Part shown: positions 11,351-36,504 of the stretch, in pieces | Numbering within the stretch: the stretch's first letter is position 1 | Layout: every line of letters starts with the position of its first letter | NCBI GenBank assembly: GCA_030523825.1 | Contig: JAUNHU010000007.1 | Location: forward strand, 1 to 59,372 | Reading direction: 5' to 3' | Origin: Lautropia sp. | GTDB lineage: Bacteria; Pseudomonadota; Gammaproteobacteria; Burkholderiales; Burkholderiaceae_E | DNA: 59,372 bases | Translations under genes and position numbers: made by a program | Notes under the pieces: model-generated | What the model was told of the DNA's origin: nothing | The model's input: the letters and a program-made list of their open reading frames with translations, nothing else | Databases searched by the model: none

Positions 11351-14119
<2,769 letters not shown>

Positions 14120-20237: not shown

Positions 20238-20292
20238 GTTTCGTGGCCTTTTTCCTGCAAGGGCAGGCCCGCATCAGTTTCAAGGGCCGGGA

Positions 20293-20353: not shown

Positions 20354-20468
20354 GGAACGGCCCTCTGCATCGGAGGCACGATGAAGTTGTTCCTTAGCGC
20401 GTCAGTGTTCCCGGAGAGGAAGGACTTGACGCTGCCTTGATATCGAAAGCAAAGCGATAGATCTCCCT

Positions 20469-20544: not shown

Positions 20545-20601
20545 TGGTGGCTCTTGTGGGGCACGGCACAGTTCGGCTCGCCGGTCAGCGTTCCATCTTG
20601 A

Positions 20602-21456
20602 TTACGAGATTGTCGTGAATATCCGGTTCTTCAGCCGGTGGCCGCTGTTTTCGTCGTGTGCAAATTGGGTAATTGTCGGTTTGCGGCTGCACAGTTCCCG
20701 CATTCGCCGGGTGCTGTCGTTGTGCAGGTCGGCGTCGATGGCCACGCCATCCACTTCGCCCCTGAGCATGGCTGCCTCGGTGTAGGCGGCGTCACCGGCC
20801 AGCAATACATAGTGCTCGCCCTGGTCGATGATGACCGACAGGTGGCCCAGGGTGTGTCCCGGTGTGGGCACGAGCCGGATGCGTCCGTCTGCGGTGAGTT
20901 TCCGGCTGCTGGCAAAACTCTCGAAGGGGCCGTCATCGAAGCTGATGCCGCTGGGGTTGAACCACTTGGGGTAGTGCATGTTCAGGTAGCCCTGCATCGG
21001 GCCATTGCTTGCGAGGCAGGCTTCCTTTTCGGTGTGGCTGAGCACGAATTCGCTGTGGGGAAAATGGTGAATGCCGCCGGCGTGATCGCCGTGCATGTGT
21101 GTCATCACCACCCATTTCACGCGGTGGGGATCAAGTCCCAGGGCGCGGATGCGTTCGCCGACTTCTTCTTCCGGTTTTACCCAGCGCCGTTCGCAGAACT
21201 GCATGAACGGATGCCACCACGGTTGATACCCCTTGTCGTTGGCATGGGCGCTTTCGCCGGTGTCCACCACGATCAATCCTTCGGGGTGCTCGATCAGATA
21301 GCAACCGATGGGCAGTCTCGGCGACCAGTGCGGGTCGATGAGCACGTCGAACACCCGGGCAGGGCGTTTGCGAAAGCGGGCAACCTGATGCCGGGACTTG
21401 ATCTGCACGTCGCCCGTCTGGATGGGGTGAAGCCTGATGTCTGACATGTCTGGCAC
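20602..21456 (-). CDS. Metallo-beta-lactamase-fold hydrolase, N-acyl homoserine lactonase-like
   Basis: The 284-residue protein has the metallo-beta-lactamase fold. The dinuclear zinc motif is VVMTHMHGDHAGG near residue 116, followed by LVPTPGHTLGHLSVI near 196 and LLAGDAAYTEAAM near 217, and the PIGCYLIEHPEGLIVVDTG strand pair at the front. Overall it resembles AiiA-type AHL lactonases, which open the lactone ring of quorum signals, but the substrate could be another lactone or ester. It is the last gene of a reverse-strand cluster, 64 bp downstream of a Crp/Fnr regulator that may control it. Confidence 0.82.
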   Translation of the reverse strand: MPDMSDIRLHPIQTGDVQIKSRHQVARFRKRPARVFDVLIDPHWSPRLPIGCYLIEHPEGLIVVDTGESAHANDKGYQPWWHPFMQFCERRWVKPEEEVGERIRALGLDPHRVKWVVMTHMHGDHAGGIHHFPHSEFVLSHTEKEACLASNGPMQGYLNMHYPKWFNPSGISFDDGPFESFASSRKLTADGRIRLVPTPGHTLGHLSVIIDQGEHYVLLAGDAAYTEAAMLRGEVDGVAIDADLHNDSTRRMRELCSRKPTITQFAHDENSGHRLKNRIFTTIS

Positions 21457-21519
21457 TCCGCCAACACGAGGAGGCGGCAGTATAGGCAGGTTGCCGCGAG
21501 ACGGGCTGACAGAAAACGG

Positions 21520-22116
21520 TCAGTTGCCGGCCAGTTTCTTGCGAATGGCCGTGAGCGTCTGGCGGCGGATGCCCAGGTAGGAGCACAGATCGGACACCGA
21601 CAGGCGGCTGAACAGCTCCGGGTCGTCCTGCATGAAGTCCTGATAGCGTTGTTCGGCCTTGGTGATGAGAAAGCGCTCGGTTCTGCGCACATAGGCGAAC
21701 AGTGCCTGTTCGAGCATGATCCGGTAAAAGCGTTCCAGTTCGGGCATGTCCCGGCAGCAGTCGTTGAAATGCGTGAATGGCATCAGCACCAGCGTGCTGG
21801 CTTCGACGGCCACGAAGTCGTAGCGGGCGGGTTCTCCGTTGCGCATGGCGTAGTAATCGCCAGCGCCGGTGTGCTCTCTGAAGAAATTGACATTCACCTG
21901 CTCGCCCTGGCTGTCAGTGTAGACGGCCTTGAGCAGGCCACGGGCCACATAGGCCACCTGCGTCGGGGTGTCGCCCTGGTGGATGAAGACCTGTCGTGCG
22001 GGCAGTTCCAGCACCTGCAAGCCCCCGCCGACCCGTTGCAGTGCCGCGTCGCTCAGGCCCGGGCAATGGTGGTGGATGGTGTCGAGCAGCGCTTTTATCC
22101 AGGGGGATGGGGGCAT
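21520..22116 (-). CDS. Crp/Fnr family transcriptional regulator
   Basis: This is a 198-residue regulator with a cyclic-nucleotide-binding-like beta-roll (LPARQVFIHQGDTPTQVAYVARGLLKAVY near residues 34-62) and a C-terminal helix-turn-helix LSVSDLCSYLGIRRQTLTAIRKKLAG. There is no N-terminal cysteine cluster of the Fnr type. The start at 22116 gives the common length; a longer reading to 22191 or 22254 is open and contains an AAGAAGGAGGAAA run at about 22160, so the start is uncertain. It lies between the monooxygenase and the lactonase genes, transcribed with them. Confidence 0.85.
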   Translation of the reverse strand: MPPSPWIKALLDTIHHHCPGLSDAALQRVGGGLQVLELPARQVFIHQGDTPTQVAYVARGLLKAVYTDSQGEQVNVNFFREHTGAGDYYAMRNGEPARYDFVAVEASTLVLMPFTHFNDCCRDMPELERFYRIMLEQALFAYVRRTERFLITKAEQRYQDFMQDDPELFSRLSVSDLCSYLGIRRQTLTAIRKKLAGN

Positions 22117-22275
22117 GGTCGGGGCGATGGGATTTCGGTGGCAGGCGTGTTGCCGATTTTCCTCCTTCTTTTGCGCATGGCAAGGATGCATGCATCCGCC
22201 CGATGCGGGGTGTACGAGATTACGCAATCTCTTTGTTTCGAGAAAAATGCACACCCTACGCGATGCGGGATGTGC

Positions 22276-23298
22276 TCAGGAGCCTCCCAATGCCGGAAAT
22301 TCCGGCAGCACGTATTCCGCCAGTTCAGCCAGCACGTCCTTTGCCGGGCGGCGTGATGCTTTCAGGTTGAAGGCGATGTGGTTGACGCCGGCATCGCGCA
22401 GGCGGCTCAGGTGTTCTAGCAGCGCATGCCGTCCTGCCGCCATGCCGGCATGGATGGGGGTGAGGGGCGCGTCGGGATCGGGCAGGAGGTCGAAGAACTG
22501 GCCCTGCGCAAAGGGGCGGAAGGCATCGCCTGCGTGCTGCGCGGCTATTTGTCTCCACGTCGAGACGAGTTGGCGGGTGCGGTCGGCGTCGATGTAATAG
22601 TAGAACCAGGCATCGCTCTGGTGGGCGATCCAGTCCATGTCCTGCTGGCTGCGTCCCACCACCACGAGGGGTAATCGCCCGTGCACGGGTTTGGGAATCA
22701 CGTCGAGATTTCCCCCGAAGCGGCCGTGGCGGGGGAAATGCCCCTGCGGGAAGCGCGTTTCGCTCGCCTGGCGGATCATCGCCAGCGCCTCACGGAAGCG
22801 TTCTCCGCGATGCGCGTAATCGTCTTCCACGCCAAAGAGCGGGTACTCGGTGGGGCGATCGCCCGAGGCCACGCCGAGCAGCATCCGGCCACCGGACAGG
22901 TGGTCGATGGATGCTGCTGCCTTCGCCGCATGCACGGGGTGTCGCAGGGTGATGACGGCAGCAGCCGTGCCGAGTGCGATCTGCCGGGTGCGGGCCGCCA
23001 GAAAGGCCAGGTAGGTGAACGGGTCGAACACCTGACCCACATCGCCGAAACCGGGGTCGAAGGTGGGCACATCGCGTGCCCAGAGTGCGGCAAACCCCAG
23101 CTCGTCGGCCAGTTGGGCCAGCTCGCCGTGGCCCTGCATGGTGGGGGCGGGGCTGTCGGGATAGCCCTCCAGCGGCAGGATGAAACCCAGGGTCAGCTTG
23201 CCGGGGGCAAAGGTGCGCCGAAAGCCGGCATGGGCGATGGGGGTTGCCAGCGTGGTGGCGCTGTCATCCGGTGCCGTGTGTGTGGAGGGCGTGTTCAT
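22276..23298 (-). CDS. Luciferase-like (LLM class) flavin-dependent oxidoreductase
   Basis: The 340-residue protein is a bacterial-luciferase-like TIM barrel using reduced flavin. Visible family features are LTLGFILPLEGYPDSPAPT near residue 35, ADELGFAALWARDVPTFDPGFGDVGQVFDPFTYLAFLAART near 63-103, IALGTAAAVITLRHPVHAAKAAASIDHLSGGRMLLGVASGD near 106-146, and PLVVVGRSQQDMDWIAHQSDAW near 207. It looks like the BA3436-type subgroup of unknown substrate. It follows the MDR dehydrogenase by 16 bp and is probably co-transcribed with it. Confidence 0.85.
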   Translation of the reverse strand: MNTPSTHTAPDDSATTLATPIAHAGFRRTFAPGKLTLGFILPLEGYPDSPAPTMQGHGELAQLADELGFAALWARDVPTFDPGFGDVGQVFDPFTYLAFLAARTRQIALGTAAAVITLRHPVHAAKAAASIDHLSGGRMLLGVASGDRPTEYPLFGVEDDYAHRGERFREALAMIRQASETRFPQGHFPRHGRFGGNLDVIPKPVHGRLPLVVVGRSQQDMDWIAHQSDAWFYYYIDADRTRQLVSTWRQIAAQHAGDAFRPFAQGQFFDLLPDPDAPLTPIHAGMAAGRHALLEHLSRLRDAGVNHIAFNLKASRRPAKDVLAELAEYVLPEFPALGGS

Positions 23299-23314
23299 GG
23301 GTTTGCGTCCCGGT

Positions 23315-24337
23315 TCATGCGTTGCCGATGCGGATCACGATCTTGCCAAAGGCGCCACGGCCCAGGTGCTCGTAAGCCTGGATGGCCTCGTCGAAAGTGT
23401 AGACCCGGTCGATGACCGGCTTGATGCCGTGGCGGTCGAGGAAGGGGTTCATCCGGTCGAAGGAGGTGCGGGGCGCGACGGCGATGCCACGGATGGTGGT
23501 TTGCCGGAAGATGACGGGCATCAGTTCGAGCGCGCAGGTCTGCCCGCTGAGGAAGCCCACCTGGGCAATGACGCCGCCGACCTTCGTGGCCTGCACGGAC
23601 TGGTTCAGGCCATTGCCGCCGGCCACGTCGATGGTCACATCCACGCCCTGGCCGTCGGTCAGAGCCAGCACTTCCCGCGCCCAATCCGGGTGCGAGCGGT
23701 AGTTGATGCCGTCGCTGGCGCCCAGTTGCCGGATGCGGGCGAGGCTGGCATCGTTGCTCGATGTGGCGATGACCCGTGCGCCATGCGCTGCGGCAATCTG
23801 GGCGGCAAAGATCGAGACGCCGCCGGTGCCCTGCACCAGCACGGTCTGACCGGGTTCCAGCCGGCCCACGTCCATCAGCGAATACCAGGCGGTGAGCGCG
23901 GCAATGGGCAGGGTCGCCGCTTCCTCGTCGGACATCGACGCCGGTGCCGCGACGGCACCGTTTTCATGCAGGATCATGTATTCCGCCAGCCCGCCTGGCA
24001 GCGGCATGCCAAGGCAGTACATCGGCTCGTCGGGGCCGGGGGTACCGTCCAGCCAGCGCGAGTACAGGTGCGAATTGACCCGGTCGCCCACCTTGAAGCG
24101 GGTCACGCCGTCGCCCACCGCCACCACTTCGCCCACGGCATCCGACACCGGGATCAGCGGCTTCGGCACCAGGTGGGGTTCGTAGATGCCATCCACGATG
24201 GCCTTGTCGCGGAAGTTGAGCGACACGGCCGACACCTTGATGAGCAGTTCGCCTGCCTTGGGGGTCGGGGTTTCGACTTCGCGCTGACGCAGGTTGTGGA
24301 GTCCGAAATCGTCGAGCAGCCATGCTTTCATGGTCAT
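23315..24337 (-). CDS. MDR-family NAD(P)-dependent alcohol dehydrogenase / quinone oxidoreductase
   Basis: The 340-residue medium-chain dehydrogenase has the GroES-like N-terminal domain (AVSLNFRDKAIVDGIY near residue 37, VGEVVAVGDGVTRFKVGDRV near 70) and a Rossmann domain with GQTVLVQGTGGVSIFAAQIAAAHGARVIATSS near 162-193. The cysteine cluster of the structural zinc is absent, so it is closer to quinone-oxidoreductase-like members than to classical zinc alcohol dehydrogenases. It is the first gene of a reverse-strand cluster and divergent from a LysR regulator, its likely controller. Confidence 0.88.
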   Translation of the reverse strand: MTMKAWLLDDFGLHNLRQREVETPTPKAGELLIKVSAVSLNFRDKAIVDGIYEPHLVPKPLIPVSDAVGEVVAVGDGVTRFKVGDRVNSHLYSRWLDGTPGPDEPMYCLGMPLPGGLAEYMILHENGAVAAPASMSDEEAATLPIAALTAWYSLMDVGRLEPGQTVLVQGTGGVSIFAAQIAAAHGARVIATSSNDASLARIRQLGASDGINYRSHPDWAREVLALTDGQGVDVTIDVAGGNGLNQSVQATKVGGVIAQVGFLSGQTCALELMPVIFRQTTIRGIAVAPRTSFDRMNPFLDRHGIKPVIDRVYTFDEAIQAYEHLGRGAFGKIVIRIGNA

Positions 24338-24568
24338 CTGAATATCTCCTGATGAAGGGGGCAGGGAATGGGGCCGGGCAGTGCCGTCTGGCGCAGGGGG
24401 GCAGCTCGTGCGGTCTGCCCATGTGACCGGGTGGTGAGGTTGTCAGGAGGCGATTCTATGTTTCCGTGTTTTATCCGTGGTCGAAGTTTTGGCGTAAGAT
24501 TGGAGAATGAAATGATCCAATGATCGCTGGCTGAATGCCCCGGCGGGGCCGGGGAGCGGCACCACAGG
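24338..24568 (+). promoter_or_regulatory. Divergent promoter region between MDR dehydrogenase and LysR gene
   Basis: A 231-bp divergent gap. Its right half (about 24455-24525) is AT-rich, with TTTCCGTGTTTTATCCG, and is the probable site of both promoters and of a LysR box. No unambiguous T-N11-A operator could be picked by eye. Confidence 0.4.
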
Positions 24569-25486
24569 ATGAGAAACCCCATGCGCGAAGACCGTTTCGA
24601 TGGTGTTGCCCTTTTCATCACCGTCGTGGAGGCCGGCAGCTTTGCGGCCGCTGCCAACCGCGTTCATCTGACGCGCTCTGCCGTGGCCAAGGCGGTGGCC
24701 CGGCTGGAAACCCGGCTCGGGGTGCGCCTCTTTCAGCGCACCACCCGCCAGCAGGTGCTCACCGACGAGGGTATGCGTTACTACGAGCACTGCTGCCGGC
24801 TGATGGCAGAACTCCGCGAGCTGGAGTCCGCGCTGCACGAGGGACGGCAGGAGGTGGAGGGGCGGGTGCGCATCAGTGCGCCGGTGCTGTTCGGGCGCCG
24901 CTGTGTGGCGCCGGTATTGCGCGGGCTGGTGCGGGCACATCCCCGTCTGGTGGTGGAGGCCGAGTTCTCGGATCGCGTCGTCGATGTGGTGGCGGACGGA
25001 TTCGATCTGGTGGTTCGCATCGGTGCGCTGGCCGATTCCGGTTCCCTGGTGGCGCGCAAGCTCGGCGAGCAGCGGATGGCGATCTTTGCCTCACCAGCCT
25101 ATCTTGCCGTGCATGGCCGGCCCTCCAGTGTGGCTGAACTGAAGCAGCACACCGGCATTCTCTATGGCAAATCGGCTGCCACCCGAAGCTGGCAATTACG
25201 GGATGAGAGCGGCGCGAGTCACACCATCCTGCTGGAAGGGCGGGAACGATACGATGACCTGCAGGCGGTGGCCGATTCGGCCATTGCAGGGGGCGGACTG
25301 GCCTGGCTGCCGCGCTGGCTGGGCGCGCCGCACGTGGCCTCGGGCGAGCTGGCGCTGGTGATGGACAGCGATCGGGTGCTGTCGGTGGACATCCATGTGC
25401 TGTGGCCGCAGAACCGCTATCTGCCGCTGCGGGTGCGCACCCTCATCGACGCGCTGACGGATCAGGTGCCTGGGCTGCTGGGGTGA
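24569..25486 (+). CDS. LysR family transcriptional regulator
   Basis: The 305-residue regulator has the LysR winged helix-turn-helix (FDGVALFITVVEAGSFAAAANRVHLTRSAVAKAVARLETRLGVRLFQRTTR, residues about 10-60) and a periplasmic-binding-like effector domain (RVRISAPVLFGRRCVAPVLRG near 100, GSLVARKLGEQRMAIFASPAYL near 155). A second ATG at 24581 (MREDRFDG) is an equally good start. It is divergent from the MDR-LLM-Crp-lactonase cluster and probably regulates it. The effector is unknown. Confidence 0.92.
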   Translation: MRNPMREDRFDGVALFITVVEAGSFAAAANRVHLTRSAVAKAVARLETRLGVRLFQRTTRQQVLTDEGMRYYEHCCRLMAELRELESALHEGRQEVEGRVRISAPVLFGRRCVAPVLRGLVRAHPRLVVEAEFSDRVVDVVADGFDLVVRIGALADSGSLVARKLGEQRMAIFASPAYLAVHGRPSSVAELKQHTGILYGKSAATRSWQLRDESGASHTILLEGRERYDDLQAVADSAIAGGGLAWLPRWLGAPHVASGELALVMDSDRVLSVDIHVLWPQNRYLPLRVRTLIDALTDQVPGLLG

Positions 25487-25631
25487 GTGCAGATCCCGCA
25501 TCAGTTTCAATGGTCGGAGCGGCCCCCTGTATCGAAGGCAGGGTGAAATTCTTCTGCCATGCGGAAGCCTTCCCGAACAGGGGAAGGACTGACCGTGCTC
25601 TGATATCGAAAACACAGCGACGGTTTTTCCT

Positions 25632-25707
25632 GCGGGAAGGCCGCGCGACCCGGCGGCTCTACGCCGTCAAGCGCCGAATGCGCCGCCGGGCCGCACGCCC
25701 TTACCGT
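25632..25707 (+). repeat. 76-nt hairpin repeat R5
   Basis: Fifth 76-nt palindrome, with loop CTCTACGCCGTCAAGCGCC and some stem drift. TGATATCGAAAACACAGCG starts at 25601, again 31 nt upstream. The flank from about 25499 matches the flank of R4, and GCATCGAAGGCACGATGAAG recurs just after the hairpin at about 25718. The stretch 25487-25798 contains only these repeats, between lysR and the CRISPR island boundary. Confidence 0.9.
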
Positions 25708-25798
25708 TGTGGCCCCCTGCATCGAAGGCACGATGAAGTTTTTTCGCTACGGGGAAGTTCCCTGATGGAAAGGATTGGCGCTCCTCTCACAACGGGAG

Positions 25799-25959
25799 TC
25801 AATCCCGCGCCGGCTCCTGATCCGGGGCGATGGGGCCTTCCGGTTCGTGTTCCTGCTGTGCCGTGTTGCTGGCAGGACGGGTGCCGATGGTGATCGGCAG
25901 TTCCAGCTCCTGCCCGCTGCGGATCAGGCGGAAACTGGCGGTTGAGCCGGGCGTGAGGC
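25799..25959 (-). repeat. 161-bp direct repeat, left end of CRISPR-Cas island (copy of htrA 3' end)
   Basis: Base for base identical to 36344-36504, which is the last 161 bp of the htrA gene. On the minus strand it encodes the last 52 or so residues of HtrA, from LTPGSTASFRLIRSG to PDQEPARD and the stop, but the upstream part of the gene is missing here. Similarity ends abruptly at 25959. It marks the left boundary of the island carrying cas3 through the CRISPR array. Confidence 0.95.
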
Positions 25960-26154
25960 TTAGATCGCTAGCGCGGTTTCGGGTGGCCATCTCCATTCTT
26001 GGCCGCAGAGACAGCAGAAGCCGCTGCTTGTCACCAAAAACCTACAGTTCTTTGGTTGTTTTTTGCGGAAGAGGGCTGTTACACGCGACTGTTTGTACTA
26101 TTTCCGAAAGCACAAGAAATAGTTTGCAAAAGGGCTGTCTTCACGGGATGAGAG
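25960..26154 (+). promoter_or_regulatory. Upstream region of the cas operon
   Basis: 195 bp between the htrA-derived repeat and cas3 with no gene. It becomes AT-rich from about 26030, including TTTGGTTGTTTTTTGCGG and a weak inverted pair TATTTC/GAAATA around 26099-26121. The cas promoter is probably here; no regulator can be assigned. Confidence 0.45.
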
Positions 26155-28872
26155 ATGGACATTCGGATGCAGCGGGGAACGTGGATACCTTGGGGCAAGC
26201 TGTCGGATGACCGGATGCGGCTCCATCCTCTTCTGGATCATCAGATGGACGTGGCCAGTGTAATGCTGGCCTTGACCAAGGTCATCGGTATCAGGCGTGC
26301 TTTGGAGCGTGCGGCGGGCAGATCCTTGTCCGACATTGATGTTACCCGTCTCGGAGCTTTAGCCTATTTGCACGATATTGGCAAGGCCTCAACGGGGTTT
26401 CAGGTTCGCTTCTGGGAAGGAGGGGGGCGTGAGCGTCGGCCTGCCTATTGGCATGTAAAACCCTGCGGACATGGGCCGCAGGGGTGGAGTTTGTTCCAGG
26501 GAAGCCTTGCTGGTGCCGAGCGGATCCTGGCCGGTTTGCCGCTGGAGGAAATGGATGGCTGGGGAGCGTCCACATTTGAACTGCTGCATGCAAGCATCAG
26601 TCATCATGGTCGGCCGGTGACTCCCGTGGATGTCGAGTCGATCTGGACACCAATCCGGGATGGGCACGTACTTATCTATGACCCTGCCGAAACCGTCGCT
26701 GCAATGGGTCAGGCGCTTCGGCAGCACTTTGCAGCCGCATTTGTGGATGATGCCGATGAATTGCCTGCCAGGCCGGAGTTCTCGCATCTGTTTGCGGGGC
26801 TCGTGCAGTTGGCTGACTGGTTGGGGTCGGATACCCGGGAGGGTTTCTTTCCGTTCTCTCAAGCCGATGAAGTGAGGGCCTTGACGGCGCCTGGTCGGGC
26901 GCGTCATGCGATCCGGGCCGTGGGAATAGATGCTGGTGACTGGCAGAGCCGACAAGCCAGAACCACAGACAGCTTTGCGCAGGCGTTCCAGGTACCGGCA
27001 CCACGACAGATGCAGGCGGCGATGGCCGCTGATGATCTGGGGGCGCTGGTCATTCTGGAGGCAGAAACGGGCAGCGGCAAAACAGAGGCTGCCCTGTGGC
27101 GCTTCCTGCATCTGTGGCGAGCAGGGCTGGTTGACAGCCTGTACTTTGCGCTTCCGACGAGAGTGGCCGCTAGTCAGCTGTATGAACGGGTTCGTGCCTT
27201 TGTCGAGCAAGCTTGGAGCAGTGACAGACCTGTGGTACTACGGGCATTGCCTGGCTATACCGCAGCTGATGGCGAGAGTTTTCAGGCGCTGCCGGAGTTT
27301 AAGGTGCTCTGGCACGATGAACCTTCCGATGAAGATGCCGAGCGGCGTTGGGCTGCAGAGTCTCCCAAGCGATATCTGGCCGCCACTCTTGCAGTGGGAA
27401 CAATTGATCAGGCTTTGCTGGGAAGTTTGCAGATCAAACATGCGCACATGCGGCAGGCCATGTTGTCGCGAAGCCTGTTGGTGATCGACGAGGTCCATGC
27501 ATCGGATTCGTATATGACACGTTTGTCAGAACATTTGCTGCGTGTTCATCTGGCCTGCGGTGGTCAGGCACTGCTGTTGTCAGCGACCTTGGGAGCCATT
27601 GCAAGAACACGCTATCTGTCCCTGGGCCCTGGAGGGGAGTCAAAGGACATAGTGCCAGGGCTTGCCGAGGCGGCCGGTGTTCCGTATCCGGCGGTTTCCT
27701 GTTGGCAGGGTGAAGGACGCGAACCGCGCACTGTTACGAAACAGATCACCGGAAACGCCCGGGAAAAGCGGCTGAGCTGGAAAACGCTTGAAGCAATCGA
27801 CGATTATGAAAGGGTGGCAGCGCTGGCTGTAGAGGCGGCAGCGAAAGGGGCGAGGGTGCTGATTATCCGCAACACGGTACCTGCGGCCATTGAAACGCTA
27901 CATGCCGTGGAGGCGCTGGCCAAAGCACGGCAGCTGGATTGCCTGTTCAAGCTCAACGGTGTCAGTACACTGCATCACAGCAGGTTCAGTCGGGCGGATC
28001 GGCCATTGCTGGACCAGGCCGTTGAACACCAGCTCGGCAAACATCGCGGCTCGGCGTCGGGCTTGATTCTCATCGGCACACAGACGCTTGAACAGAGTCT
28101 GGATATAGATGCCGATCTGTTGATTACCGACCTGTGTCCGATGGATGTCCTGTTGCAGCGGGTTGGGCGCTTGCATCGGCACGAACGACCGAGTGGGAAA
28201 CGTCAGGATGATCGCAGACCTTCAGGGTTTGAATTGCCTTTTGCCTGGGTTCTCATCCCGACAGGCGGGGATCTGGCGCCGATGTTGGACAGACAACGAC
28301 ACGGGCTGGGGCCCATCCGCATCAAGGGCCAGCCCATGGGAGGCGTCTATGCAGATCTGCGGGTTCTGGAGGCAACGCGACGTCTGATCGTGGAGAAAGC
28401 CGAGCGTTGCATTCCTGCGGACAACCGGGAATTGGTGGAAAAAGCGACCCATCCCGAGGCGCTGGATAACATCGCGGCTGAGCTGGGGGGGCGTTGGCAG
28501 CGCTTCGGACAGGAGTATGACGGCGGGCTGAGGGCGGTGGAAAGCGTTGCCGAAATTCATGCCATCGCTTTCGAGTGCCCGTTTGATTGTTTCCGATCAC
28601 GTAGTGAAGACGAGTTCGTCATCGGCAGCCGATTGGGGGCTGCCGACCGCCTCTTGGTGTTCAGTGAGGAGCCAATGGGGCCCTTTGGGATCCCCGTCAG
28701 GCAGCTGACCCTGCGCCATCACATGGTGGAAAGGGGGTTGCCCGCCGATGTTGTGCCAACACGGCTGCAGATACTGCCCGATGGTTCCGGTTTCAGCTTC
28801 GTGCTGGGCAGCACGCAGTACCGATACAGTCGATTGGGGGTTGAACGTCTGCCGTCCATGCAAGGAGAGTGA
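26155..28872 (+). CDS. cas3: CRISPR-associated helicase/nuclease Cas3 (type I-E)
   Basis: Cas3 is recruited by Cascade to unwind and degrade target DNA. The 905-residue protein has an N-terminal HD nuclease domain (HPLLDHQMDVASVM near residue 23, YLHDIGKAS with H73-D74, and SISHHGRPV near 145) and a superfamily 2 helicase: Walker A ETGSGKTEAALW near 303, DEVH box VIDEVHASDSYM near 443, SATLG near 480, and motif VI QRVGRLHRHER near 667. All catalytic motifs appear intact. It heads the operon cas3-cas8e-cse2-cas7-cas5-cas6e-cas1-cas2, and its stop is 7 nt before the next start. Confidence 0.95.
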   Translation: MDIRMQRGTWIPWGKLSDDRMRLHPLLDHQMDVASVMLALTKVIGIRRALERAAGRSLSDIDVTRLGALAYLHDIGKASTGFQVRFWEGGGRERRPAYWHVKPCGHGPQGWSLFQGSLAGAERILAGLPLEEMDGWGASTFELLHASISHHGRPVTPVDVESIWTPIRDGHVLIYDPAETVAAMGQALRQHFAAAFVDDADELPARPEFSHLFAGLVQLADWLGSDTREGFFPFSQADEVRALTAPGRARHAIRAVGIDAGDWQSRQARTTDSFAQAFQVPAPRQMQAAMAADDLGALVILEAETGSGKTEAALWRFLHLWRAGLVDSLYFALPTRVAASQLYERVRAFVEQAWSSDRPVVLRALPGYTAADGESFQALPEFKVLWHDEPSDEDAERRWAAESPKRYLAATLAVGTIDQALLGSLQIKHAHMRQAMLSRSLLVIDEVHASDSYMTRLSEHLLRVHLACGGQALLLSATLGAIARTRYLSLGPGGESKDIVPGLAEAAGVPYPAVSCWQGEGREPRTVTKQITGNAREKRLSWKTLEAIDDYERVAALAVEAAAKGARVLIIRNTVPAAIETLHAVEALAKARQLDCLFKLNGVSTLHHSRFSRADRPLLDQAVEHQLGKHRGSASGLILIGTQTLEQSLDIDADLLITDLCPMDVLLQRVGRLHRHERPSGKRQDDRRPSGFELPFAWVLIPTGGDLAPMLDRQRHGLGPIRIKGQPMGGVYADLRVLEATRRLIVEKAERCIPADNRELVEKATHPEALDNIAAELGGRWQRFGQEYDGGLRAVESVAEIHAIAFECPFDCFRSRSEDEFVIGSRLGAADRLLVFSEEPMGPFGIPVRQLTLRHHMVERGLPADVVPTRLQILPDGSGFSFVLGSTQYRYSRLGVERLPSMQGE

Positions 28873-28879
28873 CAGGATC

Positions 28880-30508
28880 ATGTCCGATGCATCGAAAGAA
28901 GATAAATCGTGGGGAAATCTGTTGATCGAGCCATTGATCCGATGGCGGGAGTTGGCAGATGGATGTTTGAAAGAGGGTAGTCTCCCCGAATTGCTTACGG
29001 CGCTGGCCGCTGACTCTGTGCAAGATTTTCCCGCACTACGGCCGCACCAGCGTCATCCTTGGTTTGCTTTTCTGGTGCAGCTGGCACTGATCGCGTTGCA
29101 ACGAGCAGGTAAGGCCGAACCATGGACTCACCCAGCTGAATGGCAGCAGGCTTTGAGGGCACTGACGCCAGATCGATCAGGACAGCCCGCAGATGACGCC
29201 TGGTGTCTTGTGGCTCCGGTTGAGATGCCCGCATTTCTCCAGCCGCCTGTTCCGGAAGGTAGTGTCAGTGCGTGGAAGATCTTGTCCGCTGCAGATGAGC
29301 TGGACATGCTTGTGACTTCAAAGAATCATGATGTGAAGGGCGCAAGGGCACGGAGAGCGCAGGCGGATGACTGGATATTTGCGTTGCTCAGTCTGCAGAC
29401 GCAGGAAGGGTTTCTTGGTAAGGGAAACTATGGCATTTCGAGGATGAACGGGGGATTTGCCAGTCGGCCAGGTGTTGGCATTGCTGCCGTGGGCAGGTGG
29501 GGGCGACGCTGGGCCGATGATGTGGCTCGCTTGTTGCATGAAAGACATGAAATTGCCCGCAAGATGCAGCTGTCGCTGGAGGGCGGATATGCACTGCTTT
29601 GGCTGTTGCCGTGGAAAGGAACCGATTCCCTGGCTTTCAATCGCCTCGACCCCTTCTATATCGAAGTATGTCGGCGTGTTCGGTTGCAGCTGACCGAACA
29701 CGGCGAACTCTTTGCAAAGGTTGTGGGAACCGAAGTACCTCGTGTCGAAGCGAAGGACAGGAATGGTGTCACGGGAGATCCGTGGACACCCGTTGAAACA
29801 GTGAAAGCCAAGGCACTGACGTTATCGGCGGGGGGCTTTGATTACCAGCTGATGTGCGAACTGATCGGTGGTGGCAAGTATACCCAAGGTAGTGCGTGGA
29901 GATTGGACGGTTGGCCCCAAGGAGAACATCTGCAGGTTATCGCACAGACGATTGTCCGCGGACAAGGGAAAACCGAGGGTTATCACGAGCGATGTGTGCC
30001 TGTATCCCCAAAAGTCCGTTCCTTGCTGAGAGCAAAGACGGGGTTGAATTTCTCTGATATTGCCCAGAGCCGGATCAAGGCGATCGCTGACGTCAGAGGA
30101 TTGTTGTGGGGATGCCTGGTAGTGCTGTTCAGCAACGGAGAGATTGCTGCATCTCCGGAGGTCAAGGAGCGGGCTAGTCGTTTTTCCAACCCTTTTGAAA
30201 AAGCTGAAGACCAACGATTCTTTGATGATCTGGCGTTGGAGTGCGAGGTTCCCGCCGAACAGCGAGCACAGCAGCGGTTGCAGTGGCAGATTGATCTTGT
30301 CGGTCGGGCAGAGGGTGTCCTGCAGGATGCATTCCGGGCAGGTCCGCGCAGTGGCAGTCGGCGCTACAAGGCACAGTCGGCTGCTTTGTCGATGTTTCAT
30401 GGCCGCCTGCGTGGCAAGAAATCGCCATTACCCGATCTGGCCAACTACTACGCCCAGAAGGGGGCTTCAGAACAGAACCATGCAGGAGATTGGCAGCATG
30501 TCGATTGA
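28880..30508 (+). CDS. casA: Cascade large subunit Cas8e (Cse1/CasA)
   Basis: Cse1 recognises the PAM and recruits Cas3 in type I-E Cascade. The 542-residue protein starts MSDASKEDKSWGNLLIEPLIRWRE and shows the family's LRPHQRHPWFAFLVQLALIALQRAG segment near residue 53 and QEGFLGKGNYGISRMNGGFASRPGVG near 175, a typical Cse1 block. The C-terminal third is a helical bundle. Start at 28880 follows an AGGA at 28873-28876 region. It overlaps cse2 by 11 nt. Base composition is less GC-rich at third positions than backbone genes. Confidence 0.93.
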   Translation: MSDASKEDKSWGNLLIEPLIRWRELADGCLKEGSLPELLTALAADSVQDFPALRPHQRHPWFAFLVQLALIALQRAGKAEPWTHPAEWQQALRALTPDRSGQPADDAWCLVAPVEMPAFLQPPVPEGSVSAWKILSAADELDMLVTSKNHDVKGARARRAQADDWIFALLSLQTQEGFLGKGNYGISRMNGGFASRPGVGIAAVGRWGRRWADDVARLLHERHEIARKMQLSLEGGYALLWLLPWKGTDSLAFNRLDPFYIEVCRRVRLQLTEHGELFAKVVGTEVPRVEAKDRNGVTGDPWTPVETVKAKALTLSAGGFDYQLMCELIGGGKYTQGSAWRLDGWPQGEHLQVIAQTIVRGQGKTEGYHERCVPVSPKVRSLLRAKTGLNFSDIAQSRIKAIADVRGLLWGCLVVLFSNGEIAASPEVKERASRFSNPFEKAEDQRFFDDLALECEVPAEQRAQQRLQWQIDLVGRAEGVLQDAFRAGPRSGSRRYKAQSAALSMFHGRLRGKKSPLPDLANYYAQKGASEQNHAGDWQHVD

Positions 30509-31052
30509 TCAGGAAGTGCGGCTGGAAGCTCTGGTCGGCCCGAAGTCCAGGGATGTACGCTACGCGGCACTCAGTGCTTATGTCGAGCATGCCAGCCTGG
30601 GTGAACGGGCTGCCTTGGCACGATTGAATCCGGCGAATCTGCGGCCTCATCAGCTGAGTGCCTTGTCGCGGGCATTGCTGGCTGCCGAGATGAGCCCGGA
30701 AAAAATGCGGCACGAAACCTGGCTCAACTGGGCGTTAATTGCGCACGGCATGGCATTGGCCGGGCATGACCACAACGAGCGTCTTGGGACGCAGCTGGAA
30801 CGTGCCGGTATTGCGGAGGGACGTGTCAATCGCCTGCTGGCCGCACGGGGAGAGGCTTTTCGGCAGATGTTGCCCCCTTTGCTGCGCCTGATGGCCAGCA
30901 AAGGGGTAAAACCCAACTGGTACGAGTTGGGTGAACTCATCGTGAAAGGCAGCAGCACTCAGTCACCGGATCGTGAATGGGCAGAGGATCTGCGTCTTCG
31001 GATTGCCGGAGCTTATTTTTCAGCGCTTTCAAAGAGTACCAACACCAAGTAA
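30498..31052 (+). CDS. casB: Cascade small subunit Cse2 (CasB)
   Basis: Cse2 forms the dimer along the belly of Cascade and stabilises the R-loop. The 184-residue, mainly helical protein has the characteristic RAALARLNPANL near residue 37, ETWLNWALIAHGMALAGHDH near 72, GTQLERAGIAEGRVNRLLAARGEAFRQMLPPLLRLMAS near 95, and NWYELGELIVKG near 137. The ATG at 30498 has CAGGAG nine bases upstream and is preferred over the ATG at 30480. It starts inside the end of casA. Confidence 0.93.
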   Translation: MSIDQEVRLEALVGPKSRDVRYAALSAYVEHASLGERAALARLNPANLRPHQLSALSRALLAAEMSPEKMRHETWLNWALIAHGMALAGHDHNERLGTQLERAGIAEGRVNRLLAARGEAFRQMLPPLLRLMASKGVKPNWYELGELIVKGSSTQSPDREWAEDLRLRIAGAYFSALSKSTNTK

Positions 31053-31073
31053 ATCATCAACCGGGTAAAAATC

Positions 31074-32258
31074 ATGAGCTTGCCGAGATTCATCCAGATT
31101 CACACGCTTCACAACTATCCTGCCGCTTTGCTCAACCGGGATGATGCAGGATTGGCCAAACGCCTTCCTTATGGAGACGCTGTCCGTACCCGAATATCAT
31201 CGCAGTGCCTGAAACGCCATTGGCGTATGGCAGAGGACGCTTTTGCCCTGCGGAACCTGAACGTCTCCATGTCGGTGCGTTCGCGTGAGTTGCCCGCATT
31301 GATCAAGAAACGCTTGATTGAGAGGGGTGTTTCCGAAACTTCTGCTCAGGCTGCGGTGGAAGCGCTGCGCCAGGGTGGGTTGCTGGACAAAGGCAAGGAA
31401 CTGAAGGGCGAGGCTGCCCTGGAAACGGCGCAGGCTGTGCTGATGGGGTATGCAGAGATCGACTATCTGGTTAAGAGGTGCGCATCCATTGCACAAGATG
31501 ACTCAGATGAAAAGGACATCAAAAAAGGTGTTGCGGATTTTCTGAAAGCAGAGAAGAAGAACATTCAGGCACTGAAACTGGGTAGCGGCCTGGAAGCCGC
31601 GCTTTTTGGTCGTATGGTGACTTCCGATGTGCTTGCCTCTCGGGATGCCGCCATGTACGTCGCGCATGCGTTCACGGTTCACGAAGCTCAGGTCGAGAAC
31701 GATTATTTCACTGTGGTTGATGATTTGTTGCGTGAGGCAGGTGAAACCGGTTCTGCCGGGATTTTCGATACCGAGCTGGCCAGCGGTCTTTACTATGGCT
31801 ACGTGGTGGTCGATGTTCCACAACTGGTGGCCAATCTGGAAGGAGTCGCCATGACTGGCTGGAACACGATCAGTCCTGCGCAAAGGGAGCTTTCAGGCCG
31901 AGTGGTCAAACACCTGTTGCACCTGATCGCTACGATCAGCCCGGGGGCGAAGCGAGGCTCGACCGCTCCCTTTGAATGGGCCAAGTTCGTGATGGTGGAG
32001 GCTGGAGATTGGCAGCCTCGTACTCTGGCCGGAGCTTTTCAGAATGCACTGAAACTGGAAGGCGAAGGGCTCAGAAAGCGCGCTATCGAGCGGCTGTCTA
32101 CCGAACTCAGGTATCTTGATGAGGCTTACGGTGTGTCTCAGGCGCGCCGTTATCTGTCAGTCGATGATGTCGAAATACCTGGGGCTGAGCGCCTTGACCT
32201 GAAATCGCTGGCCGATTGGGCTGAAAGTATCGTCAAGCAGGCGTGCGTGGGAGCATGA
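31074..32258 (+). CDS. casC: Cascade backbone subunit Cas7e (CasC)
   Basis: Cas7e forms the six-copy crRNA-binding backbone of Cascade. The 394-residue protein begins FIQIHTLHNYPAALLNRDDAGLAKRLPYGDAVRTRISSQCLKRHWR, a highly typical opening for type I-E Cas7, and has ALFGRMVTSD near residue 176, AMYVAHAFTVHEAQVENDYFTVVDD near 193-217 and the SGLYYGYVVVDVPQL strand near 237. It lies 21 bp after casB and 1 bp before casD. Confidence 0.95.
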   Translation: MSLPRFIQIHTLHNYPAALLNRDDAGLAKRLPYGDAVRTRISSQCLKRHWRMAEDAFALRNLNVSMSVRSRELPALIKKRLIERGVSETSAQAAVEALRQGGLLDKGKELKGEAALETAQAVLMGYAEIDYLVKRCASIAQDDSDEKDIKKGVADFLKAEKKNIQALKLGSGLEAALFGRMVTSDVLASRDAAMYVAHAFTVHEAQVENDYFTVVDDLLREAGETGSAGIFDTELASGLYYGYVVVDVPQLVANLEGVAMTGWNTISPAQRELSGRVVKHLLHLIATISPGAKRGSTAPFEWAKFVMVEAGDWQPRTLAGAFQNALKLEGEGLRKRAIERLSTELRYLDEAYGVSQARRYLSVDDVEIPGAERLDLKSLADWAESIVKQACVGA

Positions 32259-32259
32259 T

Positions 32260-33030
32260 GTGACCCGTTACCTGATACTGAAACTGCAATCCCCATTGAT
32301 TGCGTTCGGTGGTGAAGCGATCGACAACCATGGGGTGATCCGGGACTTCCCGGCACTGTCGATGGTGACGGGATTGATTGCCAACGCGCTAGGCTGGGAT
32401 CGGTCTGAGGATGGAAGGCACAACCAGTTACAGCAACGTTTGCGCATGGGAAGTGTCTTGGCGCCTGGCTCACGACGCTTGCAGGATTTCCAGACCGCGA
32501 AGATTGATGGTGACGATATCGGATGGACCACTTGGGGGGCGCCCGAGGAACGGCGGGGTGGGGCTGGAACCTATGCCGGGCCGCACCTTCGCTATCGGGA
32601 CTATCACGCCAATCTTTGCATGTGGGTGGTGGTGACGTTGAAGCCTGCCGAGGCAAGTCCGACACTCGGCGATATTTCCGAAGCGCTGAATCGTCCTGCC
32701 AGACCTCTCTTCATCGGCAGAAAGCCGTGCGTGCCCAGTGGGCCGATCTTTGCCGGCTGGTGCGAGGCGGAGACGCTGCTCGACGCGCTGCAGCACATCG
32801 TCGCTGAACAGGGGGCGGCTGCGAAGGAAGCGGAGCGTGACGCACGCAAACCCCACGACGAGATTTGTTCGGCTGGTTGGCGCGCACAATGGCCTGAAGG
32901 GGAAGGACAGCTGTCTTCCGACCGCCGCGTCGACGTTTGTGATGAACGAAACTGGAGCACTGGCCTGCATGGCGGGTGGAGACCTGTGCGTGAGGGCATG
33001 TTGTATGCCAAGAGAGGTACCCATGAGTGA
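32260..33030 (+). CDS. casD: Cascade subunit Cas5e (CasD)
   Basis: Cas5e caps the 5' handle of the crRNA. The 256-residue RAMP protein starts at a GTG (32260), giving TRYLILKLQSPLIAFGGEAIDNHGVIRDFPALSMVTGLIANALG, where the strand-helix pattern and the D-x-P-x-x-S-M-x-T-G-L-I motif are typical of the family. A second conserved segment is LNRPARPLFIGRKPCVPSGPI near residue 145. The GTG start is forced by the position of the casC stop. It overlaps cas6e by 8 nt. Confidence 0.92.
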   Translation: MTRYLILKLQSPLIAFGGEAIDNHGVIRDFPALSMVTGLIANALGWDRSEDGRHNQLQQRLRMGSVLAPGSRRLQDFQTAKIDGDDIGWTTWGAPEERRGGAGTYAGPHLRYRDYHANLCMWVVVTLKPAEASPTLGDISEALNRPARPLFIGRKPCVPSGPIFAGWCEAETLLDALQHIVAEQGAAAKEAERDARKPHDEICSAGWRAQWPEGEGQLSSDRRVDVCDERNWSTGLHGGWRPVREGMLYAKRGTHE

Positions 33031-33787
33031 CCAACCGATTTTCCTGCTCCATACTCGTCCAGATGCGCGCATGCTTTCCGCTTGGATTGCACGGAAGCAT
33101 GCCCGCAGCAGCCATCGGCCCTCCGATATGGGTGATGCACTGCACGGTCTGTTGACCAAAGCATTCGGCGACTTAGCCCCTAAACCCTTTCGGTATCTTG
33201 ATGAAGATCGTGGTTTGCTTGCTTACACTCATCTGGACGATCGGGCGATGGCGGCACAGGTGGTACTTGCTGATCCGATTGCTGCCCAGACACTGGGGCT
33301 TGGGGCCAGCAGCCGTGATGGTGGTTATCGCCTGCGCCCTTTCCCGGCAAAGTGGCCGGTGGGCCAAACTCTATCGTTCGAGGTGAGAGTACGTCCTACG
33401 ACCCGCTCCGATGACGGTGAAAGGGATGTCTTTCTGCGCGCAGTGGCCAAGGCTAATGGAGCTGCGCTTGATCGCTCTCAGGTGTATCTGGAGTGGTTCA
33501 GGAAGCAGGTGGAAGGCGCCGATCAGAGGGAACGTCAGCCGTGGCAGGGCGGGGTGGAATTGCTCGATACCCGGGTCGATGCATTTCAACGTTTGAAGGT
33601 CGTGCGTCGTGACCAGAAGTCTGCCGACGATGAAGCACGTAAGACTTCCATCATCGAAGGCCCCGATGTTGTATTGAAGGGGCGGTTGCGTGTTCAGGAT
33701 TCTGAAGCTTTTGCGCAGTTGCTTCGCCGAGGGGTCGGTCGGCATCGTGCCTTCGGTTTTGGCATGTTGCTGTTGAGCAGGGCATGA
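33023..33787 (+). CDS. casE: crRNA endoribonuclease Cas6e (CasE)
   Basis: Cas6e cuts the pre-crRNA within each repeat and stays bound to the 3' hairpin. The 254-residue protein begins MSDQPIFLLHTRPDARMLSAWI and carries basic/histidine residues at KHARSSHRPSDMGDALHGLL near residue 30, the expected place of the catalytic histidine, and the C-terminal Gly-rich loop GVGRHRAFGFGMLLL near 238. The internal repeat-binding region is rich in Arg. It overlaps casD by 8 nt and ends 15 bp before cas1. Confidence 0.92.
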   Translation: MSDQPIFLLHTRPDARMLSAWIARKHARSSHRPSDMGDALHGLLTKAFGDLAPKPFRYLDEDRGLLAYTHLDDRAMAAQVVLADPIAAQTLGLGASSRDGGYRLRPFPAKWPVGQTLSFEVRVRPTTRSDDGERDVFLRAVAKANGAALDRSQVYLEWFRKQVEGADQRERQPWQGGVELLDTRVDAFQRLKVVRRDQKSADDEARKTSIIEGPDVVLKGRLRVQDSEAFAQLLRRGVGRHRAFGFGMLLLSRA

Positions 33788-33802
33788 GGATGGGGGGCGG
33801 TA

Positions 33803-34693
33803 ATGCTCAAAGGTCGCCTGGGTCTTGAGACTGCCCGCGTGCCGCACGTCGACAGGCATGGCTTGTTGTGGCTGTCGAGGGGGGAACTGTGTGTGATCGA
33901 TGGGTGCTTGCACTTCGCGCGGGGTCAGGAATCTAGAACAAGCGTCGACCAGATACCGCATCAAACCGTCTCGATGATCTTGCTGGGCCCCGGTAGCAGC
34001 GTGACACATGATGCACTGCGTCTGCTCGCTCGCCACGGTACACTGCTGGCCGCGGTGGGGGTAGACGGTGTGCGCTGTTACACCGCTCCACCTTTGACCT
34101 CTCGGCCGTCGATCGTGGCTCGACGGCAGGCAGAACTTTGGGGAGACAGTAGGCGCCGGATCAGCGTGGCCAGACATATGTATGCCTTGCGTCTCGGAGA
34201 GGTGTTGCCACACAGGGATCTGGATACCCTGCGTGGTATAGAAGGTTCCCGTGTCAAGAACGTCTACAGGCTGATGGCCGACAAATACGGTATTGAATGG
34301 CGGGGGCGTCGCTATGATCGTTCCGACCCGAGCGCTGCAGACGTTCCCAATCAGGCCATCAATCATGCAGTAACAGCCGTGGAGGCTGCTGCTGTCGTTG
34401 CGGTTCAGGCGATCGGGGCGATCCCTTCGTTGGGTTTCATTCATGAAGATCCAGGGCAGTCCTTCGTGCTCGACATCGCAGATCTCTTTCGGGACACCGT
34501 CACGCTGCAGATTGCCTTTACCGCGGCAAAGCACGCAAGGAATAGTGCTGATTCGATCGACCGCCTGGTGCGAAAGGAGGCGGCCACGGTGTTCCGAAAA
34601 GAAAAGGTGATAGCCTCGATGATCGATCGCATCAAACAGGTTTTGAAGCTGGAAGAGATTGGTTATGGCAATGGTCATGGTCGTGATTCGTGA
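33803..34693 (+). CDS. cas1: CRISPR integrase Cas1 (type I-E)
   Basis: Cas1 inserts new spacers with Cas2. The 296-residue protein has type I-E features: LSRGELCVIDGCLHFARGQE near residue 24, PHQTVSMILLGPGSSVTHDALRLLARHGTLLAAVG near 52-86, and the metal ligands E147 (RGIEGSR), H214 (GFIHEDPG) and D224 (VLDIADLFRD). All three are present, so it should be active. It overlaps cas2 by 29 nt. Confidence 0.95.
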   Translation: MLKGRLGLETARVPHVDRHGLLWLSRGELCVIDGCLHFARGQESRTSVDQIPHQTVSMILLGPGSSVTHDALRLLARHGTLLAAVGVDGVRCYTAPPLTSRPSIVARRQAELWGDSRRRISVARHMYALRLGEVLPHRDLDTLRGIEGSRVKNVYRLMADKYGIEWRGRRYDRSDPSAADVPNQAINHAVTAVEAAAVVAVQAIGAIPSLGFIHEDPGQSFVLDIADLFRDTVTLQIAFTAAKHARNSADSIDRLVRKEAATVFRKEKVIASMIDRIKQVLKLEEIGYGNGHGRDS

Positions 34694-34979
34694 CATGCCA
34701 GCCCGCTTTCACGGATTTCTCTGTTCCACCATGCTGGAAGTGGCTCCGAACGTTTTCGTCTCTCCCCGGATGAATCCGGGGGTGCGCGAGCGGGTCTGGA
34801 CAGTCGTCTCGGATTGGTACCACGCCAAGCCTCAGGGCAGTCTGGTCATGGTGTGGCGGGATCTGAACGCAGTCGGAGGGGTTGGCCTGGCCAATTTGGG
34901 CGACCCCCCTCGCGAGCTGGTGGAGTACGACGACATGTGGCTGGTACGTCGGATGATCTCTCCAAACGTAACGTTATAG
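34665..34979 (+). CDS. cas2: CRISPR-associated Cas2 (type I-E, CasCas2CT1988-like)
   Basis: Cas2 dimerises to bridge two Cas1 dimers during spacer capture. The 104-residue protein has the ferredoxin-like start MAMVMVVIRDMPARFHGFLCSTMLEVAPNVFVSPRMNPGVRERVW seen in I-E Cas2. Three ATGs (34665, 34671, 34677) are in frame; the first has GGAAGAG seven bases upstream. It begins inside the end of cas1 and its stop is only 51 bp before the first CRISPR repeat. Confidence 0.92.
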   Translation: MAMVMVVIRDMPARFHGFLCSTMLEVAPNVFVSPRMNPGVRERVWTVVSDWYHAKPQGSLVMVWRDLNAVGGVGLANLGDPPRELVEYDDMWLVRRMISPNVTL

Positions 34980-35030
34980 AACATAGAATACGGAGGTTTT
35001 CTCTTGTAATTCATGGGGTTGGTTGCAAGA
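34980..35030 (+). promoter_or_regulatory. CRISPR leader
   Basis: Short AT-rich stretch between the cas2 stop and the first repeat, including ATAGAACATAGAATACGG and TTTTCTCTTGTAATTC. Array transcription and new spacer insertion should start at this end, because the opposite end of the array carries the degenerate repeats. No IHF site could be assigned with confidence. Confidence 0.6.
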
Positions 35031-35913
35031 GGTTCCCCCGCGTATGCGGGGATAGACCCGTACCGCTAGTTGTTCTGCGCACAGCCGATTGGGTTCCCCC
35101 GCGTATGCGGGGATAGACCCGGTCATTGACCCTCCTTGATTCCTCGATACAAGGTTCCCCCGCGTATGCGGGGATAGACCCCCGACCGCTGCCGTTCGCA
35201 ACGTGAAGGTGTAGGTTCCCCCGCGTATGCGGGGATAGACCCTGGTCTTGAGGAGGCGTGGTCTTGAACTTCCAGGTTCCCCCGCGTATGCGGGGATAGA
35301 CCCTTGACCGACAGGCCGCCCGAGGCGATCAGGTAGGTTCCCCCGCGTATGCGGGGATAGACCCCCGTCGGATCATTTCGGTAAATACGTGGCGAAGGTT
35401 CCCCCGCGTATGCGGGGATAGACCCAGAAGTCCCTGCCAATAGTTCGTCATCAGCCTGGTTCCCCCGCGTATGCGGGGATAGACCCGAGATACTTAATCT
35501 CGCCATCGACGAATTGCCGGCTCCCCCGCGTATGCGGGGATAGACCCTTGCCCAAAAGCCCTCATGGTTCGAGCGGATGGGTTCCCCCGCGTATGCGGGG
35601 ATAGACCCCGCCTAGGCCCTAGGCCAGTTTAGTACGTCAAGGTTCCCCCGCGTATGCGGGGATAGACCTTACGTAGATGCTGCTACAGGCTGCTCATTGG
35701 AGGTTCCCCCGCGTACGCGGGGATAGACCTTAAAGGGCTTAGACTGTAAAAGCCCTTTGGCCGGTTCCCCCGCGTATGCGGGGATAGACCCCAACCGCGA
35801 GTCAAAACCATGAAAATCCATACGGTTCCCCCGCGTATGCGGGGATAGAGCCCGGTCCGGATCGCGCCCCACCGGAAAATGACAGGCTCCCCGCGTATGT
35901 GGGGAATGGGCTT
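35031..35913 (+). CRISPR. Type I-E CRISPR array, 15 repeats and 14 spacers
   Basis: Repeats start every 61 nt at 35031, 35092, 35153, 35214, 35275, 35336, 35397, 35458, 35519, 35580, 35641, 35702, 35763, 35824 and 35885. The 29-nt repeat begins GGTTCCCCCGCG and ends GCGGGGATAGACCC, so CCCCGC...GCGGGG forms the Cas6e hairpin; all spacers are 32 nt. Repeats at 35031-35458 are uniform, 35519 has one change in its fourth base, and 35641 onwards drift (35702, 35824), with the last copy (35885) clearly degenerate. This puts the oldest end on the right and transcription on the plus strand, as for the cas genes. The short open frames in the array are repeat artefacts. Confidence 0.98.
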
Positions 35914-36343
35914 TACGAGGAGACGCACCGGCAGGCCAGAGGGGATGTTCTGGAAAGTGTCTCGTTGCTGTCGCTCAGCGCAACTCGCCCGGCAGGGAGC
36001 GCAGGACGAAATCCAGCATGTCGCGCAGGTCGGCAAGGGATCCGTGCTCGGACGAGAGGGGGCCGGTCATCCGGTGGCGCATGCTTTCTATTGCCATGGC
36101 TGAAAACAGCGAAGCCTGATAGTGCCGGCTCTCCGCGGGGGGTGGGGCAGGCGGGTGCACGCCGTGTCGATGAAGGCATGCAACAGCATGTCCTGCAGGT
36201 CCCGGTGTAGATGATGTCGACGGGTGTTTATTTGGCAGAGTGCCAGAATGAGCCGGCAGCGCAAGGAGATCAAGGCCGGCCTGAAGTAGAAGTGCGACGA
36301 TCGGAGCGCGAGGCTCAGATTGCTCTGATGCTTGCCGTTTGAT
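35914..36343 (+). other. Gene-poor stretch between CRISPR array and htrA
   Basis: About 430 bp with no supported gene. Two reverse-strand fragments (35975-36160 ending ADLRDMLDFVLRSLPGELR, and 36088-36273) look protein-like in parts and could be pieces of one frameshifted, decayed gene, but I do not recognise the family. The stretch is part of the segment bounded by the 161-bp repeats. Confidence 0.4.
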
Positions 36344-36504
36344 TCAATCCCGCGCCGGCTCCTGATCCGGGGCGATGGGGCCTTCCGGTTCGTGTTCCTG
36401 CTGTGCCGTGTTGCTGGCAGGACGGGTGCCGATGGTGATCGGCAGTTCCAGCTCCTGCCCGCTGCGGATCAGGCGGAAACTGGCGGTTGAGCCGGGCGTG
36501 AGGC
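36344..36504 (-). repeat. 161-bp direct repeat, right end of CRISPR-Cas island (htrA 3' end)
   Basis: Identical to 25799-25959 by direct comparison of the two stretches. Here the repeat is continuous with the intact htrA gene. The distance between the copies is 10,545 bp and the segment between them holds the whole CRISPR-Cas locus. Confidence 0.95.

Follow-up and report, generated by a model that had tools for sequence, protein, structure and literature searches.

A type I-E CRISPR-Cas locus between identical copies of the htrA 3′ end in Lautropia sp.

The stretch of DNA analysed here (the window) is 59,372 nucleotides long and comes from Lautropia sp. (assembly GCA_030523825.1, contig JAUNHU010000007.1). 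Beside htrA, which codes for a Do-family serine protease, it carries a type I-E system of clustered regularly interspaced short palindromic repeats (CRISPR) with its cas genes, and this unit lies between two copies of a stretch made up of the terminal 161 bases of htrA (Table 1). The window is one entire contig of the 293 in its assembly, which amounts to 3.36 Mb, is 80.7% complete and looks like a metagenome-assembled genome.

Table 1. Features of the window discussed in the text.
Feature	Position	Strand	Remarks
tatC, left edge of variable region	10493..11350	+	PF00902; conserved htrA neighbour in congeners
Rest of variable region	11351..25798		katG-like peroxidase, DUF72, PF04754 protein, AbiL-like (RloAB) pair, metallo-hydrolase, cNMP-binding protein, luciferase-like protein, zinc dehydrogenase, LysR, dispersed repeats; four further open reading frames of 80-253 aa outside the family searches
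Orphan htrA end, last 161 bases	25799..25959	-	stop codon at 25799; identical to 36344-36504
26-bp stretch over left junction	25944..25969	+	imperfect repeat of 36299-36324
195 bp from orphan htrA end to cas3	25960..26154	+	25960-26250 matches only the window's own loci (E <= 0.1)
Type I-E operon cas3-cas8e-cas11-cas7-cas5-cas6-cas1-cas2	26155..34979	+	seven genes by NCBIfam, Cas11e by PADLOC
CRISPR array	35031..35851	+	14 repeats of 28 nt, 61-nt period, 13 spacers of 33 nt
About 490 bp from array to htrA	35852..36343	+	no known match
Partner of the 26-bp stretch	36299..36324	+	ends 19 nt before right 161-bp copy
Native htrA 3′ end, second repeat copy	36344..36504	-	inside open reading frame 36344-37633
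htrA, Do-family serine protease, 429 aa	36344..37633	-	TIGR02037 374.5 bits, under 416.2-bit cut-off

The cas locus and the duplicated htrA end

A preliminary description, made from the letters of the window alone, placed eight cas genes and an array between the two copies, and the family matches and a reading of the array agree with it. The genes cas3, cas8e, cas11, cas7, cas5, cas6e, cas1e and cas2e are adjacent on one strand, and all are open and of normal length. Seven of the eight are over their NCBIfam cut-offs, Cas8e marginally so (70.7 bits, cut-off 70.05); the remaining gene is matched as Cas11e in PADLOC. The array, with its 61-nt period, adjoins cas2, and a further CRISPR repeat, degenerate-looking by eye, is seen at about 35885-35911, where it follows the clear repeats at the distal end. 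On these matches the locus is predicted to be a complete type I-E CRISPR-Cas system. A comparison of the array with phages gave two records, weak and of low identity, while 25799-36504, repeats included, had no match in phages. A comparison of the region with plasmids gave two records, consisting of short pieces that lie within htrA.

The two 161-bp copies are equal letter for letter (161/161) and in direct orientation, with their starts 10,545 bp apart, and the identity extends by 0 bases at either end. Alignment of the window with itself returns the same pair (164 columns, 99%). The right copy starts exactly at the stop codon of htrA (TCA on the forward strand), and the left copy is an orphan in which htrA sequence ends at base 25959. 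The preliminary description was therefore right about the two copies and about which of them is the natural gene end. It had named many unrelated genomic copies as a case against an insertion; the own assembly holds no third copy, and its two matches (E <= 0.001; 40 of the 44 first-look candidates scored) are the copies already described. A chance origin of an exact repeat of this length is excluded.

Perfect identity had also been taken to imply a recent event. The identity stands, and a recent duplication is likely, but recency is unproven because 0 differences in 161 bp bound the divergence only at about 2% (rule of three) and because gene conversion could be an alternative way of keeping the copies identical. 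Judging from the repeats, loss of the cas unit by RecA-mediated recombination between them is plausible.

A direct target repeat around inserted DNA would also result if a cas fragment had been captured at a break with staggered ends, the filling-in of which duplicated 161 target bases. This would require end joining on both sides, and bacterial target duplications are usually far shorter than 161 bp; we think such an origin hardly probable at all. A different kind of explanation is that the arrangement is an effect of assembly, in which the 161-bp repeat served to join a chromosome lacking the island to a free circle, or to join the sequences of two strains. The incompleteness of the genome and its many contigs speak for this, as does the expectation that an integrated unit would share its assembly-graph junctions with a chromosome plus circle. 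Against it, the contig runs through both copies and ends elsewhere, and its first and last 400 bases have no exact overlap to other contigs, and we regard an assembly effect as improbable. Assembler overlap was considered as a source of the 161 bases and rejected, none being seen at the contig ends. The right contig end (58973-59372) has matches of 67-88% on several other contigs, and is a dispersed repeat where the assembly stopped.

The htrA site and the cas unit in relatives

The gene tatC is present in all nine genomes of the genus, the own genome included, and in the window 25 kb lie between it and htrA. On the 5′ side of htrA, nif3 and then mscL follow in 8/8 congeners, and petABC comes next in seven of them (in G004 the contig piece stops short of that position). 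The conserved flanks enclose variable contents: htrA and tatC are compact in five of the eight congeners (G001, G002, G004, G007 and G008), two (G003 and G005) carry other inserts between them, and in one (G006) the segment is split across contigs. The tatC-htrA segment is a variable hotspot in the genus. The insert in G003, whose htrA is the most similar among the congeners, encodes proteins of type I restriction-modification together with a SIR2-like PADLOC candidate (L090 6769-17413), so that the defence genes at this position are not always the same ones. The G005 insert and the G006 stretch contain open reading frames, which were listed by position. Neither the inserts of G003 and G005 nor the examined G006 stretch gave a copy of the htrA end; comparison of G005 with itself gave a sole match near the htrA end, which is inverted and 39 columns long.

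Because tatC is 25 kb from htrA and the lysR side is itself variable, the cas unit is one module, on the htrA side, of a larger variable region. The preliminary description had looked to relatives for an island-free junction of htrA with lysR. That junction is not the one found, since five of the eight congeners have htrA next to tatC, and the lysR side (11351-25798) falls within the variable segment.

A survey of the family found tatC in 71/74 genomes, nif3 in 67/74 and both in 66/74. The two are on one contig in 53 of these 66 genomes and on different contigs in the other 13. In 38/53 they are compact, being on the same strand and less than 2.6 kb apart, a distance that fits htrA alone; in six they are close and in opposite orientation; and in nine, the own genome among them, the distance is wider. 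Two of the nine wide cases, at 85-87 kb, may be non-syntenic, and four (G030, G080, G081 and G082) belong to one other genus and measure 6.6-8.2 kb.

The rest of the variable region contains a second defence candidate, an AbiL-like pair of an RloA-type ATPase and RloB at 18231-20230, and DNA similar to this pair occurs elsewhere in G003. A PF04754/DUF4351 protein, presumably of the Rpn family of recombination-promoting nucleases, is encoded at 16677-17858, inside the hotspot. A dispersed repeat family has copies at 14191-14292, 16473-16579, 17970-18106, 20427-20562 and 25589-25715, the last just before the orphan htrA end; pairs are 72-95% alike, and further copies are on many other contigs. 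Parts of 18000-26154 have DNA of about 69-70% similarity elsewhere in G002, G003 and G008.

For the cas unit itself, a Cas7 search of 61 genomes matched seven, the own genome included. Two of the eight congeners match, at about 36% and in other genomic places, and six have no match; G047, which belongs to another family, has a match at 73%. The scan for close relatives by Cas7 gave 59 named loci, 58 of which are at least 60% identical. The nearest, at 70-75%, are mostly named as Comamonadaceae or as genera that we take to belong to it. The contig outside 11351-36343 has a G+C content of 63.8%; the value is 62.6% for 11351-25798 and 58.0% for the DNA enclosed by the repeats. With no close Cas7 in the eight congeners and a G+C content of 58.0% as against 63.8%, the unit looks acquired. 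The idea of a CRISPR-Cas island inserted at the htrA end thus keeps its acquired-looking unit and its duplicated gene end, and loses the integrase-type insertion (see below).

The examined flanks of 60 related cas loci gave no HtrA match (0/60), and relatives carrying the cas locus at the htrA site without the repeat, which the preliminary description had named as contrary evidence, were accordingly not encountered. Flanking repeats were compared for 58 of the 59 Cas7-relative loci (L089 being left out) together with L098. Six of these 59 have no cas3 or cas2 match and 13 have less than 300 bp on a side, which left 40 to be compared, over about 0.3-5 kb on the left and 1-6.7 kb on the right, taking at most five matches per locus and excluding matches beside left-side arrays. 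Among the matches listed, a near-identical gene-end repeat around the cas locus occurs in 0/40. The direct matches listed are those of L040 (26 bp, 85%), L055 (42 and 36 columns, 83% and 86%), L057 (117 and 42 columns, 68% and 79%), L050 (551 columns, 69%), L058 (1673 columns at 91% and 43 at 98%) and L098 (355 and 135 columns, 67-68%). Inverted matches only are listed for L031, L036, L054, L061, L066, L080 and L081. Similar open reading frames on the two sides of the cas locus account for the matches in L050, L058 and L098, and by eye these frames read as paralogous genes. In L058, from Halorhodospira abdelmalekii, the cas locus lies between direct copies of a 537-aa open reading frame (1625-3285 and 16266-17926, 91%).

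Flanking repeats as a property of this cas family were considered and are unsupported by the 40 loci. As the inserts of G003 and G005 and the G006 stretch also have no copy of the htrA end, the 161-bp repeat seems to be the record of a single event in the window, and no general feature of either the site or the cas unit.

Possible routes of insertion

Family and PADLOC searches found no integrase or recombinase within 25960-36343 (small out-of-frame open reading frames were not searched), and apart from the cas operon and the array the interval holds flanking sequence that has no known match. The sole tRNA found in the window, a tRNA-Thr at 44482-44557, is outside the repeats. Within this scope, the earlier statement that integrase, insertion sequence and tRNA are absent between the repeats holds. 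The repeats are htrA coding sequence with no flanking insertion sequences or transposase, which is not the structure of a composite transposon. A match to PF04754 (named Transposase_31), which we take to be the Rpn nuclease family, was rejected as a sign of a transposon, since it is sited outside the repeats.

The preliminary description had compared the arrangement with integrase-driven islands that rebuild a gene end. Here the gene end is present twice, htrA is intact, one edge is exactly at the stop codon and an imperfect 26-bp repeat lies near both edges, all of which would suit a site-specific integrative element that rebuilt the htrA 3′ end and whose enzyme is encoded elsewhere or was lost. 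The searched genes between the repeats include no integrase, the same attachment structure is not seen in the G003 and G005 inserts or the G006 stretch, and none of the 40 related loci has a near-identical gene-end repeat. The integrase-type reading is not upheld, and we consider an element of this kind quite improbable.

The edges of the unit give some further information. The sequence at 35860-36343 has one copy in the own genome and no match in the plasmid collection. Among the compared cas loci, 35850-36343 matches only the window's own, plus one chance-level 23-bp match (E 0.049) in L083. At the left edge, the joint between 25959 and 25960, where the identity ends abruptly, looks illegitimate. 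The two 26-bp stretches near the edges have 20/26 bases equal, a score that was matched by 5/5000 random window draws (a few overlapping draws being skipped), and this echo was spotted after the fact. We take it as possible microhomology at an illegitimate joint, or conceivably as an old attachment-like repeat.

A joint of this kind would also be produced by a one-sided replacement through homology-facilitated illegitimate recombination, if the CRISPR unit was already at htrA and a fragment of lysR-repeat-htrA order from another strain recombined homologously further left and had its broken end, which lies 161 bases inside htrA, joined illegitimately upstream of cas3. The final sequence would be identical, and no circle would be needed. 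According to a study in E. coli (PMC3240628), most such joints have 3-10 bp of microhomology, of which the 26-bp echo may be an example. The events reported there insert and delete about 1 kb on average, whereas the fragment here would be long, and only 4/60 E. coli clones apparently arose in this way, three of the four without homology at the joint. We regard one-sided replacement as unlikely, though well worth keeping in mind.

The reading that we prefer, and to which we give about an even chance, is that the CRISPR unit was captured beside an htrA end as a fragment that became circular, and entered the chromosome by one RecA crossover. On the donor fragment a type I-E unit would have adjoined the final 161 bases of htrA; the fragment could, for instance, have come from a conspecific strain with the unit already in its hotspot. 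It would have been trimmed and closed to a circle by end joining, the joint being that between 25959 and 25960. A single RecA-dependent crossover within the shared 161 bases would then bring the circle into the chromosome, with no integrase involved. The outcome would be an intact htrA, a 161-bp orphan of its end across the unit, and a pair of identical repeats whose recombination by RecA could in principle delete the unit again. The donor, the circularisation, the crossover and the reversibility are all steps that we infer.

A precedent for these steps is found in E. coli given cut, partly homologous plasmid DNA, where 56/60 Lac- clones had duplicated part of the homologous gene end (PMC3240628). 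The 14 duplications that were sequenced measure 109-950 bp, a range into which the 161-bp orphan fits. The authors' account is a single crossover with a circle in which some of the homology was missing, and they favour linearisation, degradation and recircularisation over a pre-existing deletion (PMC3240628).

Several points weigh against capture of a circle. No search gave a conspecific genome with the donor or the empty state, and the steps are unobserved. The ComEC match stays below its cut-off (19.8 bits) in an 81%-complete genome, in a test that only 5/14 control genomes pass; natural competence is unsupported and, since this weak test was below cut-off, natural transformation is not claimed. 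A repeat that ends at the stop codon requires that the inserts of donor and recipient both abutted that codon. A plain circle model would not lead one to expect the 26-bp echo, unless the echo is microhomology. Finally, L058, with its cas locus also between direct copies, is the nearest to a counter-example among the related loci, and indicates that duplicated flanks are not wholly unique to the window.

Taken together, it is most likely that the repeat is the scar of homologous capture in a hotspot of known kind, and not the mark of a new type of island. A recombinase-free mobile CRISPR cassette, which would use the 161-bp htrA stretch as a portable homology handle and leave and re-enter repeatedly as a circle by RecA alone, the Rpn-like nuclease of the hotspot perhaps stimulating exchange, is in our view very improbable. 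On the preferred reading of circle capture, the locus would be a readable scar of CRISPR-Cas acquisition without mobility genes of its own, with the duplicated gene end recording the crossover segment. If both states occur in conspecifics, it would be a natural counterpart of laboratory single-crossover capture, and immunity would be losable in one RecA step.

Comparison with known systems

No literature precedent for a CRISPR unit between copies of the htrA end was found in the library searched. Elements that rebuild a gene end are known at icd, where e14 and phage 21 carry an integrase and a diverged copy of the gene end. They resemble the present case in being inserted at the 3′ end of a protein gene, with the end present twice, and differ from it in that the window has no integrase that was found and its copies are identical. 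The type I-E loci of Comamonadaceae and other proteobacteria have the same gene order in their complete operons, and the Cas7 identities given above, and differ in their flanks, none of the 40 usable ones having a near-identical gene-end repeat; the duplicated open reading frame of L058 is 91% alike.

Hotspots free of integrases are common, as described in a survey (PMC5635113). Like the region described here, they have conserved flanks (here htrA and tatC) and varied contents with defence genes, and no integrase is found. Unlike it, they are attributed there to double crossover in the flanks, which by itself leaves no duplicated gene end. The single-crossover circles of E. coli (PMC3240628) resemble our locus in that inserted DNA lies between direct copies of part of a gene end, of 109-950 bp in E. 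coli and 161 bp in the window, and in the lack of a recombinase of their own; they arose from a laboratory plasmid of known make, whereas the insertion beside htrA is a natural one.

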